DNA from: Paludibacteraceae bacterium
GTDB taxonomy: Bacteria > Bacteroidota > Bacteroidia > Bacteroidales > Paludibacteraceae
Reading direction: 5' to 3'
Assembly: GCA_017962085.1 (NCBI GenBank)
Contig: JAGCWA010000033.1
Coordinates: forward strand, 95,264 to 159,171
Length of the DNA: 63,908 nt
Part shown: piece by piece, positions 53,957 to 59,346 of the stretch
Position numbering within the stretch: the first letter of the stretch is position 1
How the letters are laid out: the number at the start of each line of letters is the position of its first letter
Translations under genes and position numbers: made by a program
The notes under the pieces: model-generated
Seen by the model: the letters and a program-made list of their open reading frames with translations, nothing else
Told to the model about the DNA's origin: nothing
The model's database searches: none

Positions 53957-55816
53957 ATGGGTTTGAGTGGAGGAAATAACGTACCGGTTGTGAGTAGACG
54001 GAGGTTGCTGAAAGCTGGCGTTTGGTTCGCTTTCTTCAATGCCGTCTTTGTTTTTCTTATATCGCTGAAGTATTTCGTGCAGATCCCTGACGTGATATGG
54101 AGCGGTCATACGCTCTATCTGCTCGCGTATATCCTGACTCATTTCGTGTTCATATCTTTCCTCCCTATTTTCTTCATTTACCTTCCCGTCACGATCCTTG
54201 CCCGTAGCAATCGGGTCAGCCTAATTTGCGCTTCGCTCGTGGCGACGATTTTCCTGATTATCTTAGCGTTGGACGCGTACATCTTCTCGCTCTATCGCTT
54301 CCATATCAATTCGTATGTCTTGGAACAGGTGTTCGCCCCAGGAGCGACGCAGGTTTTCGAGTTCACGGTTGCCCAATATTTCATGGTGGGGGGTGCCCTG
54401 ATCTTTTTGTTTGCGGTGGAGGTCTTGCTGTTCAAGTTGGCTTTTCGCCTGGCGAACAAGATACCTAACGCAGTCATCTACACGTTGATCGTTGTCTTCG
54501 GTCTGATGATCTGCTTCGTTCAGTGCAGGCATGCCGTGGCGTATGCCAAGAACGATCGGCAACTGATCCTCTTGGACCGCTATTTCCCCGCTTGTGTCTC
54601 GCTTGATGCGAACTCGTTGCTCTCCGCGCTCGGTAGTGAGGTGGAGCCTACCACTGTCGCTACGGACTATAGGGGTAAGGAGTATCGATATCCGCAGGCT
54701 CCTTTGACGGATACGCTGTCGGGCAAGAATCTGATCGTCATCGCGTTCGACGCTTGGCGCGCCTCGACGATGGATTCGCTCTGCTCACCGAATATCTACG
54801 AATTCTCGAAACGCTCCTCCCGCTTCCTCCGCCATTACAGCGGTAGCAATGGGACGAGGACGGGCGTCTTCTCCATGTTCTATGGCTTGCCGGGCGTCTA
54901 TTGGAAGGATTTTTGCGAACAGTCCATTCCTCCTGTCCTCTTCACCACGATGAAGGAGAAGGGCTATGACATGCGCCTCTTCCCGAGTGCCTCCATGCTG
55001 AACCCTCCGTTGGACAAGTGCGTATTCTCCTTGTCGCAGGATCAGTGCGGCTCGGCGGCGGGTGTGAACGCTTGGCAACGCGACGTGAACGTGGCGCAGG
55101 CTTTCCTGCAGTACCTGAATAGTAGGGGAGGGGACAATAACACTCCATTCTTCTCCTTCCTCTTCTTCGATTCGCTGCACAGCATGATCAAACCGGAGGA
55201 TTACACAGGTCCGTTCCAGCCTTCCTGGGACTGCGCCCATTACGAGCGTCTCGGCAAGGATGTGGACCCGACGGAGTTCCTGAACCTCTACAAAAATATG
55301 GTCTATTACCTGGATTCCCTTGTGGGGAATATCCTGAAGGAGGTAGAGGCGAAGGGCTTGCTCGACAATACGGTCATCGTCTTCACGGGCGACCATTCCC
55401 AGGAGTTCGACGACTGCCGCCACGCTTTCTGGGGCCACAACGGCAACTATTCCGCCGCCCAGATGCAGGTGCCTATGGTCTACTTCAATGGCAAGGATAC
55501 TGTCGTGTCTGACAGGTGGACGGCCCACTACGATTTGGTGCCTACCTTGATGCAGGATATCTTTGGCACGACGAACAACTGTTCCGACTACTCCATCGGA
55601 CAATCTCTCTTCGACATGACCGCCCATCGTGATTTCTTGCTGGTGGACAGCTATATCGGGGTGGGTATGATCGATAGTGTGGGTACCATTACCAATGTCT
55701 ACTATGACGGAGACTATTCCATCACCGACCGTAACTTGGACGACCTGTTCGACGTGCCTTTCGATCGTGCGCTCTTTGATCGCGCGGAGAGGCAAATCAA
55801 ACAGTTCTGGAAGTGA
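53957..55816 (+). CDS. YejM/PbgA-like inner-membrane protein with a sulfatase-fold periplasmic domain
   Basis: The 619-residue protein has five transmembrane helices (about residues 20-185) and a periplasmic alkaline-phosphatase/sulfatase fold domain. The N-terminal part corresponds to DUF3413 of YejM. The soluble domain shows 'NLIVIAFDAWRASTMDS', 'RHYSGSNGTRTGVFSMFYGLPGVYW' (the metal and nucleophile loop in the YejM style), 'FFSFLFFDSLHSM', 'VIVFTGDHSQEFDD' and 'FWGHNGNYSAAQMQVPMVYF'. E. coli YejM/PbgA senses LPS and controls LPS synthesis; other members are lipid or LTA-type transferases. It is the last gene of the VTC/DUF4956/DUF2490 cluster, one base after the barrel gene. Confidence 0.88.
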   Translation: MGLSGGNNVPVVSRRRLLKAGVWFAFFNAVFVFLISLKYFVQIPDVIWSGHTLYLLAYILTHFVFISFLPIFFIYLPVTILARSNRVSLICASLVATIFLIILALDAYIFSLYRFHINSYVLEQVFAPGATQVFEFTVAQYFMVGGALIFLFAVEVLLFKLAFRLANKIPNAVIYTLIVVFGLMICFVQCRHAVAYAKNDRQLILLDRYFPACVSLDANSLLSALGSEVEPTTVATDYRGKEYRYPQAPLTDTLSGKNLIVIAFDAWRASTMDSLCSPNIYEFSKRSSRFLRHYSGSNGTRTGVFSMFYGLPGVYWKDFCEQSIPPVLFTTMKEKGYDMRLFPSASMLNPPLDKCVFSLSQDQCGSAAGVNAWQRDVNVAQAFLQYLNSRGGDNNTPFFSFLFFDSLHSMIKPEDYTGPFQPSWDCAHYERLGKDVDPTEFLNLYKNMVYYLDSLVGNILKEVEAKGLLDNTVIVFTGDHSQEFDDCRHAFWGHNGNYSAAQMQVPMVYFNGKDTVVSDRWTAHYDLVPTLMQDIFGTTNNCSDYSIGQSLFDMTAHRDFLLVDSYIGVGMIDSVGTITNVYYDGDYSITDRNLDDLFDVPFDRALFDRAERQIKQFWK

Positions 55817-56004
55817 CAATCTTATGGAATAATGAGATGTTAGGCTACATTTTTTAGACATCGGGCCTTTTTACGGCTTCCTTTAATTCTTTATTTTTAA
55901 TTCTTAATTCTTAACTCTAAAATCGCTTGTTTTTCTCCCAAAAAATCGTTTTTTTTGTGTCCGCAAATTGTGTTTTATTTTATTATAACAATAATTAACA
56001 GATT

Positions 56005-56706
56005 ATGATTTACACAAAAGAAGTGGAACAGATGTGTTCTGTTGCCAAGGGTCCTAACCATGGACCAGCTCCTATCCCTGAGGAAGGGAAATGGATTCAA
56101 GCGAAAGAGATCAAGGACATTTCAGGTTTGACCCATGGTATCGGTTGGTGCGCTCCTCAGCAAGGTGCGTGCAAATTGACCCTGAACGTGAAGAAGGGTG
56201 TTATCGAGGAGTGCTTGGTGGAGACCATCGGTTGCTCTGGTATGACTCACTCTGCCGCAATGGCATCAGAAATCCTCCCAGGCAAGACTTTGTTGGAAGC
56301 GTTGAACACCGACTTGGTTTGTGACGCTATCAATACCGCAATGCGTGAGTTATTCCTCCAAATCGTTTACGGTCGTACGCAGTCTGCCTTCTCTGAGGGT
56401 GGTTTGGCAGTCGGCGCAGGTTTGGAAGACCTCGGTAAGGGCTTGATCGGCCAAATGGGTACGCTTTATGGTACGAAGGCTAAGGGTACTCGTTACCTCC
56501 AGTTGACAGAGGGTTACATCACGAAGATGTTCTTGGACAAGGACAACCAAGTGTGCGGATACGAGTTCGTTCACATGGGCAAGTTCATGGACGCTGTGAA
56601 GAAGGGTGTTCCTGCTGACGAGGCTCTTAAGAGCGTGACTGGCACGTACGGACGTACCAAGAAGGAAGAGGGTGCTGTTAAATCCATCGACCCACGTAAA
56701 GAATAA
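56005..56706 (+). CDS. NifU/IscU-like Fe-S scaffold protein associated with GGGtGRT
   Basis: A 233-residue soluble protein beginning MIYTKEVEQMCSVAKGPNHG. Its core is like an IscU/NifU N-terminal domain: 'GIGWCAPQQGACKLTLNVKKGVIEECLVETIGCSGMTHSAAMASEILPG' split over about residues 46-95, with conserved Cys in 'GWCAP', 'GACKL' and 'IGCSGM'. A C-terminal segment of about 120 residues is unique to this group and ends EGAVKSIDPRKE. It is usually found next to a GGGtGRT gene; function is unknown, and Fe-S assembly is inferred from the fold. Codon use is strongly optimised. The partner gene is 470 bases downstream because a cassette lies between them. Confidence 0.88.
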   Translation: MIYTKEVEQMCSVAKGPNHGPAPIPEEGKWIQAKEIKDISGLTHGIGWCAPQQGACKLTLNVKKGVIEECLVETIGCSGMTHSAAMASEILPGKTLLEALNTDLVCDAINTAMRELFLQIVYGRTQSAFSEGGLAVGAGLEDLGKGLIGQMGTLYGTKAKGTRYLQLTEGYITKMFLDKDNQVCGYEFVHMGKFMDAVKKGVPADEALKSVTGTYGRTKKEEGAVKSIDPRKE

Positions 56707-56708
56707 TA

Positions 56709-57169
56709 TTATTTACTATTGGACAATTTATTATTTACGGTTTGATGGATGGACGATGAACAAGGATGATTTGAAGAACCGACTAAAATCGTTCGCTTTG
56801 AGGATAGTCGTTCTGGTAGATAATATGCCGACAACGATTTCTTCGCAAGCATTTGCTCGTCAAATCATTCGTTCTGGAACTTCCCCTTTCGCAAATTACC
56901 GAGCCGCTTGTTTGGCTAAATCTGACAAGGATTTCCTTAACAAGCTGAAAATGGTGGAAGAGGAACTGGATGAAACCTCTTGTTGGTTGGATCTGATCGC
57001 AGAATCAGACATCGTTGCTGCTGATAGGTTGTCTTCCATACGAAATGAATGTGATGAACTGATGAAAATAATAGTCGCATCGATTCTTACTCATCGTAAA
57101 AACATGGATCGTAAAAACGTAAAGTCTATATAGTAAAGAGTAAATTGTAAATAAAAAAATAGTAAATAA
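56709..57169. mobile_element. IVS-like cassette: four-helix-bundle gene bounded by a 12-bp inverted repeat
   Basis: TTATTTACTATT (56709-56720) and its exact reverse complement AATAGTAAATAA (57158-57169) bound a segment of 461 bases that contains only the four-helix-bundle gene. The left end begins two bases after the stop of the Fe-S scaffold gene, and the right end lies four bases before the ATG of the GGGtGRT gene. The two flanking genes would otherwise be separated by only a few bases. The ends resemble those of 23S rRNA intervening sequences, which also encode this protein family between complementary ends. No transposase is present. Confidence 0.6.
56756..57133 (+). CDS. Four-helix-bundle protein of the 23S rRNA intervening-sequence (S23/IVP) family
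   Basis: A 125-residue protein starting MNKDDLKNRLKSFALRIVVLVDNMPTT (ATG 56756). It has the family pattern: 'FALRIVVLVDNMP' helix one, 'AFARQIIRSGTSPFANYRAACLAKSDKDFLNKLKMVEEELDETSCWLDLI' covering helices two and three (about residues 30-80), and 'RNECDELMKIIVASI' helix four. The SGTSPxANYxEA-type motif is the hallmark. Related proteins are encoded by IVS elements inserted in 23S rRNA genes and by the Avd gene of diversity-generating retroelements. Neither rRNA nor reverse transcriptase is nearby. The lower GC and different codon use relative to the flanking, highly optimised genes point to insertion. Confidence 0.85.
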   Translation: MNKDDLKNRLKSFALRIVVLVDNMPTTISSQAFARQIIRSGTSPFANYRAACLAKSDKDFLNKLKMVEEELDETSCWLDLIAESDIVAADRLSSIRNECDELMKIIVASILTHRKNMDRKNVKSI

Positions 57170-57173
57170 GATT

Positions 57174-58193
57174 ATGATTAGAGAAGTTAAATTTGAATCA
57201 CAAGATCGCCGTATCAAGCAAATCAACGACTGCTTGAAGGCTCACGGTATTAAGTCCATCGAGGAAGCAAACAAGATTTGCGACGCTGCAGGTTTGGATC
57301 CATACAAGACTTGCGAGGACACTCAGAAAATCTGTTTCGAAAACGCTAAATGGGCTTACGTGGTAGGTACTGCCATCGCCCTGAAGGAAAAGGCTAAGAA
57401 CGCTGTCGAGGCCGCTAAGTACATCGGCGAGGGTCTCCAGTCCTTCTGTATCCCTGGATCTGTGGCTGACGACCGTAAGGTGGGTTTGGGTCACGGTAAC
57501 TTGGCTGCCCGCCTCCTCTCCCCAGACTCTAAGTGCTTCGCTTTCTTGGCAGGTCACGAGTCTTTCGCCGCAGCTGAGGGTGCCATCAAGATCGCTACCA
57601 TGGCTAACAAGTCAAGACCGGCTAACAAGCCTCTCCGTTGCATCTTGAACGGTTTGGGTAAGGACGCCGCTATGATCATCTCCCGTATCAACGGTTTCAC
57701 CTATGTGCAAACTAAGTTCGACTACTTCACTGGCAAGTTGAAGGTGGTTAAGAAGATCGCTTACTCTGACGGTCCTCGCGCCGCTGTGAACTGCTACGGT
57801 GCCGACGACGTTCGTGAGGGCGTTGCCATCATGTGGAAGGAGAACGTGGACGTTTCCATCACTGGTAACTCTACCAACCCTACTCGTTTCCAACATCCAG
57901 TAGCTGGTACTTACAAGAAGGAGCGCGTGCTCGCTGGCAAGCCTTACTTCTCAGTGGCTTCCGGTGGTGGTACAGGACGTACTTTGCACCCAGACAACAT
58001 GGCCGCTGGTCCTGCTTCTTACGGTATGACGGATACCTTGGGCCGTATGCACTCTGACGCTCAATTCGCTGGCTCTTCTTCAGTGCCTGCTCACGTTGAG
58101 ATGATGGGATTCCTCGGAATCGGTAACAACCCTATGGTAGGTTGCACCGTTGCTTGTGCCGTTGAGGTAGACCTCTTCTTGAACAAGAAATAA
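57174..58193 (+). CDS. GGGtGRT protein
   Basis: A 339-residue soluble protein of the family named after its 'SGGGTGRTLHPDN' motif (about residues 262-274). Other constant segments are 'RIKQINDCLKAHGI', 'KICFENAKWAYVVGTAIALK', 'SFCIPGSVADDRKVGLGHGNLAARLL' and 'AGHESFAAAEGAIKIA'. The C-terminus reads 'MTDTLGRMHSDAQFAGSSSVPAHVEMMGFLG'. The family is regularly next to the NifU/IscU-like gene found upstream here; the biochemical role is unknown. Codon use is strongly optimised, suggesting an abundant protein. The start is ATG 57174, four bases after the cassette end. It ends at a strong terminator at 58215-58252. Confidence 0.93.
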   Translation: MIREVKFESQDRRIKQINDCLKAHGIKSIEEANKICDAAGLDPYKTCEDTQKICFENAKWAYVVGTAIALKEKAKNAVEAAKYIGEGLQSFCIPGSVADDRKVGLGHGNLAARLLSPDSKCFAFLAGHESFAAAEGAIKIATMANKSRPANKPLRCILNGLGKDAAMIISRINGFTYVQTKFDYFTGKLKVVKKIAYSDGPRAAVNCYGADDVREGVAIMWKENVDVSITGNSTNPTRFQHPVAGTYKKERVLAGKPYFSVASGGGTGRTLHPDNMAAGPASYGMTDTLGRMHSDAQFAGSSSVPAHVEMMGFLGIGNNPMVGCTVACAVEVDLFLNKK

Positions 58194-58214
58194 TATTCTT
58201 GTCATACATTTTCC

Positions 58215-58252
58215 CGCTCCCGTGGACTGATTTCCGCGGGAGCGTTTTTTTT
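58215..58252 (+). terminator. Intrinsic terminator after the GGGtGRT gene
   Basis: CGCTCCCG (58215-58222) pairs with CGGGAGCG (58237-58244), followed by eight T. Confidence 0.93.
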
Positions 58253-58260
58253 CTCCGTTT

Positions 58261-58291
58261 TTTGTTTTTTTAAGAATAATACATATCTTTG
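58261..58291 (+). promoter_or_regulatory. Promoter of the second PorP/SprF gene
   Basis: TTTG (58261-58264), a 19-base spacer and TATCTTTG (58284-58291) match the full Bacteroidetes -33/-7 consensus. The ATG at 58357 lies 65 bases downstream. Confidence 0.75.
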
Positions 58292-58356
58292 CCCAACCAA
58301 GTATATGCTTTTTGCTGATGCTTTTTTGCTAATGCGATGAAAAACGACTGATAACG

Positions 58357-59346
58357 ATGAAGATTAAGTATTGTATCGTAAGTCTATTGGCCCTTATTGC
58401 CTCATCTTTCCGCGCATACGCCCAAGATGATATCGTGTGTGACCAATATCACTTCAACTATTATCTGGTCAACCCGGCGGTGGCGGGAGCGGAACGTTGC
58501 AGCCACTTGATGTTGACGGGCAAGTTCCAATGGACAGGCCCGGAGTTGGAAGATCCCCCGATGACCCAGACTTTGAGTTTCCGTACCCGTGTCTTGAAGA
58601 ACGTCGGATTGGGTGTTTATGCCTACAACGACAAGAACGGTAATTCCTACCGTCAGGGTGGTGAGGTGACTTTCGCCTACCATATCCCGTTGTCGGAGAA
58701 TAGCCATTACATGATGAAGACACAGTCCATCGACCGCCAGTTGTCGTTCGGTCTCTCCTTGATGCTGAACCACTACAACTTCGACAAACACTTGTTCGAG
58801 GATTACGGATTCGAGGACCCTACCTTGGGTAACGGTGGTTCCAACAAGGGTATGTACCTCAACGCGAATGCGGGTGTCTACTTCTTGTGGGATAATTTCT
58901 TCGCGGGTTTCTCCGCCAAGGATATTGTGCCGACCGAGTTGACCGAGTTGGGTCTGGAGGAGCCGAAACGTCCGCTCACCATGTTCGGATTCTTGGGCTA
59001 CGATTTCGACCTTGTGAACGAGATCACCCTCGAGCCTTCCGCGATGTTCAAGTTCAACACAATCAAGAACAGACAGTTGGACCTCAATTTGAAGTACATG
59101 CAGACCATCCCTGACAATAAGGATTTCTCCTACTGGTTGCAGCTCTCTTACCGCCACACGTTGGACAAGAGCGAGAACAATCCTGCTCCGTTGGCGTTCT
59201 ATGCGATGGGAGGTATCCGTTACAAGGGATTCCATGTGGGCTATGCCTACCAGTTGGGTCTGACGCAGTTCCAACGTAAAAACGGAGGTTCGCACGAAAT
59301 CATGTTGGGTTACACTTGGTGCGTGACGAAGCACTTCTGTAGATAA
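58357..59346 (+). CDS. PorP/SprF family type IX secretion membrane protein (second copy)
   Basis: A 329-residue outer-membrane beta-barrel protein with a signal peptide (MKIKYCIVSLLALIASSFRAYAQ) and the family start 'QYHFNYYLVNPAVAGAERC' (NPxxAG). Other strands include 'FRTRVLKNVGLGVYAYNDKNGN', 'SIDRQLSFGLSLMLNHY', 'YLNANAGVYFLWDNFFAGFSAKDI', and the terminal 'GGSHEIMLGYTWCVTKHFCR'. It differs considerably from the first copy at 5512. As a PorP/SprF member it should serve a type B T9SS substrate; the very large secreted protein 170 bases downstream is the likely partner, in the opposite gene order to the first pair. Confidence 0.9.
   Translation: MKIKYCIVSLLALIASSFRAYAQDDIVCDQYHFNYYLVNPAVAGAERCSHLMLTGKFQWTGPELEDPPMTQTLSFRTRVLKNVGLGVYAYNDKNGNSYRQGGEVTFAYHIPLSENSHYMMKTQSIDRQLSFGLSLMLNHYNFDKHLFEDYGFEDPTLGNGGSNKGMYLNANAGVYFLWDNFFAGFSAKDIVPTELTELGLEEPKRPLTMFGFLGYDFDLVNEITLEPSAMFKFNTIKNRQLDLNLKYMQTIPDNKDFSYWLQLSYRHTLDKSENNPAPLAFYAMGGIRYKGFHVGYAYQLGLTQFQRKNGGSHEIMLGYTWCVTKHFCR

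Follow-up and report, generated by a model that had tools for sequence, protein, structure and literature searches.

Introduction

The S23/IVP proteins have a related four-helix bundle in Avd of the diversity-generating retroelements, and intergenic tandem repeats with units of 7 nt are found in cyanobacteria as STRR. According to the available text of PMC4990558, S23/IVP proteins have no known function, and the 23S rRNA IVS of Coxiella burnetii is a 428-nt element that is excised by RNase III and contains tandem heptamers preceding its S23 gene. Heptameric repeats were described in Xanthomonas and Nostoc, including 70 and 75 convergent inverted pairs in Xanthomonas (PMC4692102), and TAACTGA repeats are known from Beggiatoaceae (PMC4679880). 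Such bacterial heptamer repeats have so far been described without a source, and neither "S23" nor "four helix" occurs in the main texts of the two papers. Within the open-licence literature, no link of S23/four-helix-bundle genes to heptamer arrays was found among the matches listed, the Coxiella IVS paper excepted.

The window analyzed here is a stretch of 63,908 nucleotides from a Paludibacteraceae genome, in which an S23/IVP gene is the middle gene between a NifU-like and a GGGtGRT gene of an operon and is enclosed by inverted arms. Segment 56707-57173 is, in our view, probably a mobile cassette of ~470 bp, composed of one S23/IVP gene within inverted heptamer-repeat arms and inserted into an operon spacer. 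It resembles the C. burnetii IVS, as far as the accessible text of PMC4990558 describes that element, in its size (~470 bp against 428 nt), in having one S23-family gene, complementary ends and adjoining heptamers, and in gene decay. Unlike a 23S rRNA IVS, it sits between protein genes of an operon and has arrays as its arms on either side; that it belongs to the 23S rRNA IVS family is unsupported, as the site is not rRNA. Intergenic tandem 7-nt units are shared with the Xanthomonas, Nostoc and Beggiatoaceae repeats, but the inverted pairs of Xanthomonas, as presented in the available parts of PMC4692102, are tied neither to a gene family nor to mobility, in contrast to the S23 arms. As in insertion sequences and MITEs, there are terminal inverted repeats, though these are heptamer-based and locus-specific; unlike in those elements, no target-site duplication was seen by eye in the two filled/empty comparisons described below (NifU-like/GGGtGRT and korA/korB). 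The locus is a variant of the S23 IVS, situated in protein operons and equipped with heptamer arms, and may turn out to represent a separate class. If S23 and the heptamer repeats are one element, both the function of S23 and the origin of the repeats become testable, and the 23S rRNA IVS would be placed with mobile elements that live in ordinary operons. For annotation, this is a warning that small S23 genes within operons are likely guests.

The Cassette in the Window

All features of the locus are on the + strand. The upstream operon gene (56005-56706, 233 aa) had been annotated as Fe-S scaffold-like, which is retained as a weak NifU-like call, as it matches TIGR03419 but at 24 bits lies far below the cut-off of 187.9, and has no Pfam match. 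A further heptamer array of TTAATTC units, without an S23 gene, lies just 5' of this gene (55883-55924). The left arm (56703-56754) is AT-rich and composed of the heptamer-type units TTTACTA, TTGGACAA, TTTATTA and TTTACGG (unit division by eye), and is followed by the S23/IVP gene (56756-57133, 125 aa, start ATG at 56756), whose four-helix-bundle identity is confirmed by matches above cut-off to PF05635 (E 7e-15) and TIGR02436 (E 3e-23). Among PDB structures, 2rld_A (E 2.3e-16) is the sole solved relative found by sequence, and the 2rld entry contains five chains. The inverted right arm (57124-57175) overlaps the 3' end of the S23 gene, extends to the next start codon and contains, at 57130-57168, a degenerate array of period 7 (69% matches by Tandem Repeats Finder). 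The downstream gene (57174-58193, 339 aa) is a GGGtGRT gene, as originally proposed (PF14057, E 4e-184).

The perfect 12-bp inverted repeat that the first-pass annotation had placed at the segment's borders is exact (56709-56720 and 57158-57169), starting 2 bases past the upstream stop and ending 4 bases ahead of the next ATG. It is the outer part of two imperfect arms of 52 nt that are 71% complementary, and a perfect repeat of at least 12 arose in 1 of 2,000 mononucleotide shuffles of both flanks. No transposase is present among the ORFs of the cassette, in line with its first description as a small transposase-free cassette whose S23-family gene lies between complementary ends, and the S23 protein had no matches in PHROGs or PADLOC. 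The RNA of the cassette is predicted to fold better than shuffled sequence (z -3.7), with the arms paired in the minimum-energy structure. In another part of the window, units of 27 and 63 bp are tandemly repeated at 719-976; since both lengths are multiples of three, they perhaps correspond to a repeated protein stretch.

Filled and Empty Spacers in Related Genomes

The GGGtGRT gene was identified in 27 of 61 searched genomes, and the spacer upstream was readable in 25, including the window's own genome (G000), while G059 and G031 were left out due to a contig end or an incomplete gene. The spacer is empty in 14 of the 25, with ~2-22 bp separating the two genes, hence the pair is indeed usually adjacent, as had been stated, and the cassette is not fixed in all relatives. 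The window cassette is present in four genomes (G000, G010, G015 and, with a frameshift, G007), and four others harbor a second S23 cassette with ends of AATTAAG/AATTCAA units (G001, G005, G011 and, as a pseudogene, G018). A third S23 cassette is found in G016, and G013 and G002 have retained gene-less remnants consisting of arms only (named by eye). The three intact second cassettes give spacers of 487, 494 and 501 bp, which differ by whole 7-bp units in the right arm. In one of the other genomes (G034:C17), a second, degenerate GGGtGRT piece with a stop lies ~0.9 kb 3' of the intact gene.

Seven sister species, G000 included, hold two unlike cassettes within flanking DNA that is 93-97% identical. 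In a tree of the flanking genes the two cassettes are interleaved among the seven species, the forks concerned having support values of 81-96, while in the S23 tree the proteins of the window cassette and of the second cassette fall into different clades. This pattern would be explained by independent insertion, by exchange through recombination of the flanks, or by both, and ordinary homologous recombination in the flanks could account for the swaps among the sister species. The divergence profile of cassette versus flanks was considered as proof of cassette-only transfer and rejected, as local divergence does not set the cassette apart from its flanks.

A second locus lies between two genes that we take to be korA and korB, the latter encoding a TPP enzyme (PF02775). 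Among the 30 loci read, one type of empty spacer of 36 bp is shared by G000, G001, G010, G004, G018 and G009, while in G007 and G015 an S23 gene plus both arms lies between the genes, with a loss of ~20 bp from the old spacer (by eye). The remaining 22 loci have spacers of 23-140 bp without an S23 gene, and the 23-bp spacer of G013 contains two heptamer units. Because the 36-bp type spans very close relatives and another genus, the empty state is the ancestral one on parsimony, and the comparison shows the korA/korB cassette to be, on that criterion, a gain. A precise junction with target duplication was not found at either locus, and korA/korB instead appears by eye to be a partial replacement of the spacer. 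Mobility of the S23 cassette is well supported by these genome comparisons, although the lack of a target-site duplication and of a clean junction at the loci compared speaks against it. Since the cassette is absent or replaced in some close relatives and the arrangement recurs in other bacteria (see below), the sequences suggest that it is a very small mobile cassette and that its kind is little known.

Inverted Heptamer Arms at S23 Loci

S23/IVP proteins were found in 45 of the 61 genomes searched, and 76 S23 loci were read from these relatives, together with the best 80 of 584 from a named genome collection, which by their record titles derive from Bacteroidota, Proteobacteria, Acidobacteria, Omnitrophota, Patescibacteria, a Methanophagales archaeon bin and others. 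The 76 loci of the relatives are not all independent, since orthologous copies are included (for example, three of the window cassette and four of the second). In this set, the frequency of same-base matches at lag 7 reaches 0.43 over the 90 nt preceding the S23 genes and 0.50 over the 60 nt following them, as compared to 0.26-0.28 far upstream and in gene bodies. Inverted arms are present at 39/74 loci of the relatives and 35/77 of the best 80 of 584, but at only 4/628 ordinary genes (45-53% vs 0.6%), after 2/76 and 3/80 S23 loci and 6/634 controls with short or N-containing flanks had been left out; about half of the S23 loci thus fall short of the inverted-arm threshold. Arrays on both sides occur at 38/74 and 30/77 S23 loci vs 2/628 control genes, and at least one array at 64/74 and 54/77 vs 47/628. 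The arrays of the window itself are too degenerate for the array threshold, while its inverted-arm score of 32 passes.

Where both arrays score at least 10, the two sides have the same repeat period at 75 of 78 loci (58 with 7/7, 14 with 8/8 and 3 with 9/9). The arms also have a strong strand polarity, with, on the sense strand, G exceeding C in 88 of 104 left arms (13 reverse) and C exceeding G in 74 of 85 right arms (9 reverse). Arm units are alike within a locus and unlike between loci, even where the S23 proteins are 65-75% alike. Both neighbors are co-directional with the S23 gene in 62/70 loci of the relatives and 62/74 of the best 80 of 584 (six loci of each set had no callable neighbor pair), compared to 157/257 and 172/297 for ordinary genes. 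S23 cassettes with inverted repeat arms are a general kind in co-directional spacers across many phyla. No near-identical copy of one cassette at unrelated sites was present among the S23 loci compared; the closest S23 proteins at unrelated sites among the loci read are ~75% identical, and the best match of the window protein beyond its own genus, among 295 genomes, is 61%.

Two further observations concern the range of such elements. In G016, a gene for a 179-aa protein with an AraC-type HTH (PF12833) is located within inverted heptamer arms that resemble those of an S23 cassette (L132, 11949-12742), and genes other than S23 may travel in heptamer arms, as this one might. In two strains of Flavobacterium columnare, a four helix bundle gene is listed under phage elements between the guanylate kinase and nicotinate-nucleotide adenylyltransferase genes (PMC5524665, Table 5), and on the strength of that table entry it is a possible further spacer cassette.

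Proposed Mechanism

A mobile cassette of this kind probably depends on its inverted arms; the gene and both arms would arrive as one unit, and transcription of the operon itself would be expected to read the cassette. The length of the arms could then shift by 7-nt steps, and decay of the gene would leave arms-only remnants. Arms that vary from locus to locus but match each other at any one locus are most naturally read as a hairpin, and we infer that movement would proceed via an arm hairpin of single-stranded DNA or RNA, that the S23 protein may bind the arms, with the enzyme for cutting and joining probably supplied by the host. Inverted doublets consisting of arms only, dispersed in at least one genome (see below), resemble what non-autonomous derivatives would look like. 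REPINs may serve as the closest working model for the hairpin reading, as far as they are described in the available text of PMC3116915.

The hairpin could alternatively act in the mRNA, where RNase III would remove the arm stem as in 23S rRNA IVSs, which would render insertion into an operon harmless and mobility incidental. This is consistent with the protein family and the complementary ends shared with the 23S rRNA IVS, with the sense-direction position in the operon and the fold z of -3.7, and with the Coxiella 23S IVS being cut by RNase III and having tandem heptamers before its S23 gene (PMC4990558, available text). We nevertheless regard it as somewhat unlikely, since Rfam had no matches in 55800-58400 at gathering thresholds and an excess of G-U on the sense strand is absent from the arm mismatches. 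There, G-U accounts for 75 + 74 and A-C for 121 + 138 mismatches in the relatives and the best 80 of 584, respectively (149 vs 259). The count was rejected as evidence for an mRNA stem because A-C exceeds G-U; as this excess could stem from an avoidance of G before start codons, it gives no support for such a stem but is not a refutation.

Dispersed Heptamer Repeats and Arms-Only Doublets

The 12-mer of the window has 12 copies in its genome, two of which are in the cassette, against 1 for the reversed control, and the ten other places in G000 all lie amid 2-7 TTTACNA units, with none at an S23 match. The 12-mer was rejected as the cassette's private end, as the unit is dispersed in the genus and in G000 mostly occurs away from S23 genes. 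From the original proposal of a mobile cassette in short intergenic spacers, the mobile part, based on presence and absence in relatives and on the korA/korB gain, stands, while the 12-bp repeat as a private end does not. The unit of these ends, TTTACNATTTAC, occurs 75-136 times in each of seven genomes of the genus (117 in G000), but 2-8 times in the nine others, with 2-15 for the reversed control. In 400-kb samples, 10 period-7 arrays in G016 and 9 in G000 passed a complexity filter (10 and 12 listed), while every other period from 4 to 12 gave 0-4 arrays.

In a comparison in which only five clade loci and six G016 loci passed, the window cassette not among them, arms matched the dispersed repeats of their own genome, with 189 matches of G016 arms in the G016 sample vs 52 when reversed, and 896 vs 292 for clade arms in the G000 sample. 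Against the other genome there was little or no excess (55 vs 53 and 159 vs 126), and likewise for other loci. A unit from the arms of the korA/korB cassette is also dispersed, with a reversed control that is high too (79 vs 29 in G015).

Of the 295 genomes of the order, 8 including G000 were found to encode window-like S23 proteins (E up to 1e-25). In the seven others, the arms of these genes have TTTAC[AG]A units in G038, G179, G318 and G219, TGTACAA in G036, and other units in G253 and G214. Enrichment of TTTACRATTTAC, defined as at least 8 copies and more than twice the control, with the threshold chosen after the counts were known, was observed in 6/7 genomes with a window-like S23 vs 2/33 others (40 genomes; Fisher p 5e-5), some of the 33 possibly lying outside the window-like S23 search. 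The two exceptions, G024 and G208, were examined because of their counts and have S23 genes nearest to the window subtype, with different arms. When the fetched S23 genes, which are part of the S23 genes of those genomes, were sorted post hoc by nearest match, 13 of the 40 genomes had the subtype, and enrichment was seen in 8/13 vs 0/27, or in 8/10 vs 0/30 when limited to at least 98 bits. G016, G045, G052, G058 and G214 have the subtype by nearest match without enrichment of TTTACRATTTAC, while in the enriched G253, G024 and G208 the window-like S23 has its own arms of a different kind.

In the distant genome G318, 14 inverted doublets, chosen as close +/- pairs from the listing of TTTACRATTTAC matches, have arms of ~30 nt, and their inner repeats lie 51-169 bp apart. 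None of the 14 overlaps an ORF of 80 codons, and of the 13 doublets for which both neighbors were called, 11 have them on the same strand. Outer units agree better within a doublet than across doublets, a value reached in 2 of 5,000 permutations, or in 4 of 5,000 without the duplicate L290; ten doublets match by at least 10 of 17 bases, and L281, L282, L286 and L288 disagree (5-8 of 17). The G318 S23 cassette has the same arm as these doublets. Five doublets (L280, L283, L287, L289 and L290) have AGAGACTGTTTAAA-like flanks on one or both sides, which are possibly the ends of another transposon or a favored target.

The G318 doublets are similar to REPINs, as portrayed in the available text of PMC3116915, in being dispersed, intergenic and inverted, with matching arms and an arm-bearing gene elsewhere in the genome, but differ from REPIN/RAYT systems in that the gene within the arms is S23 and not RAYT. 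Within G318, none of the four Y1_Tnp loci read (of five matches) has a RAYT gene flanked by the same repeat. A broader proposal, which we advance tentatively as possible though doubtful, is that S23 proteins serve in trans as the factor of a mobile DNA class, widespread and so far undescribed, that is ended by inverted heptamer arrays, and in which each subtype would recognize its own heptamer, spread cassettes into operon spacers and drive the dispersal of arms-only doublets and arrays. The TTTACRATTTAC enrichment in genomes with a window-like S23 supports this proposal, while the different arms in G253, G024 and G208 speak against it.

Alternatively, a transposase of the host (Y1/RAYT or DDE) could move heptamer-ended units in trans, with the S23 gene as a passenger. 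The REPIN-like look of the G318 doublets would fit, as would their AGAGACTGTTTAAA-like outer flanks, some of which could be another transposon's, and other 7-nt arrays lie near 3 of 14 Y1_Tnp loci (L330, L331 and L334), at L334 on both sides. However, TTTACNATTTAC was near 1 of the 14 Y1_Tnp loci read (19 matches), as two direct copies at L336 in G000, so that 13 of the 14 are without the end unit of the window cassette, and none of the nine loci read in G318 (4), G208 (3), G219 (1) and G179 (1) has it. We consider this explanation unlikely. As for L334 itself (G000:C48), its Y1_Tnp gene is accompanied on both sides by AATTATG/AATTAAG heptamer arrays.

That the arrays are host slippage repeats unrelated to S23 mobility, with arms agreeing through template switching between inverted repeats and S23 genes inserted by rare illegitimate events and persisting where arrays pre-exist, would accord with the many S23-free arrays (12 were listed for the 400-kb sample of G000 and 10 for that of G016), with the TTTACNATTTAC counts in the seven genomes, with the match of arms to their own genome's repeats and little or no excess in the other, and with the over-representation of heptamers among bacterial repeats noted in the available text of PMC4692102, but is improbable in view of the array-free empty korA/korB sites, where gene and both arms appear jointly, and of the frequency of inverted arms at S23 loci relative to controls.

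Maintenance and Decay of the S23 Gene

Between G000 and G010, dN and dS of the S23 gene are 0.017 and 0.116, and between G001 and G011 they are 0.011 and 0.119. With dN well under dS in both pairs, the S23 protein is kept, and the substitution rates show the S23 gene to be under purifying selection. Decay is likewise evident, as a frameshift in G007, as stops in G018 and as the loss of the gene in G013 and G002. In G006 (L062, contig C73), four tandem copies with internal deletions, which have kept arm-like repeats, come after an intact S23 cassette, and the next gene looks like one for a type III restriction subunit.
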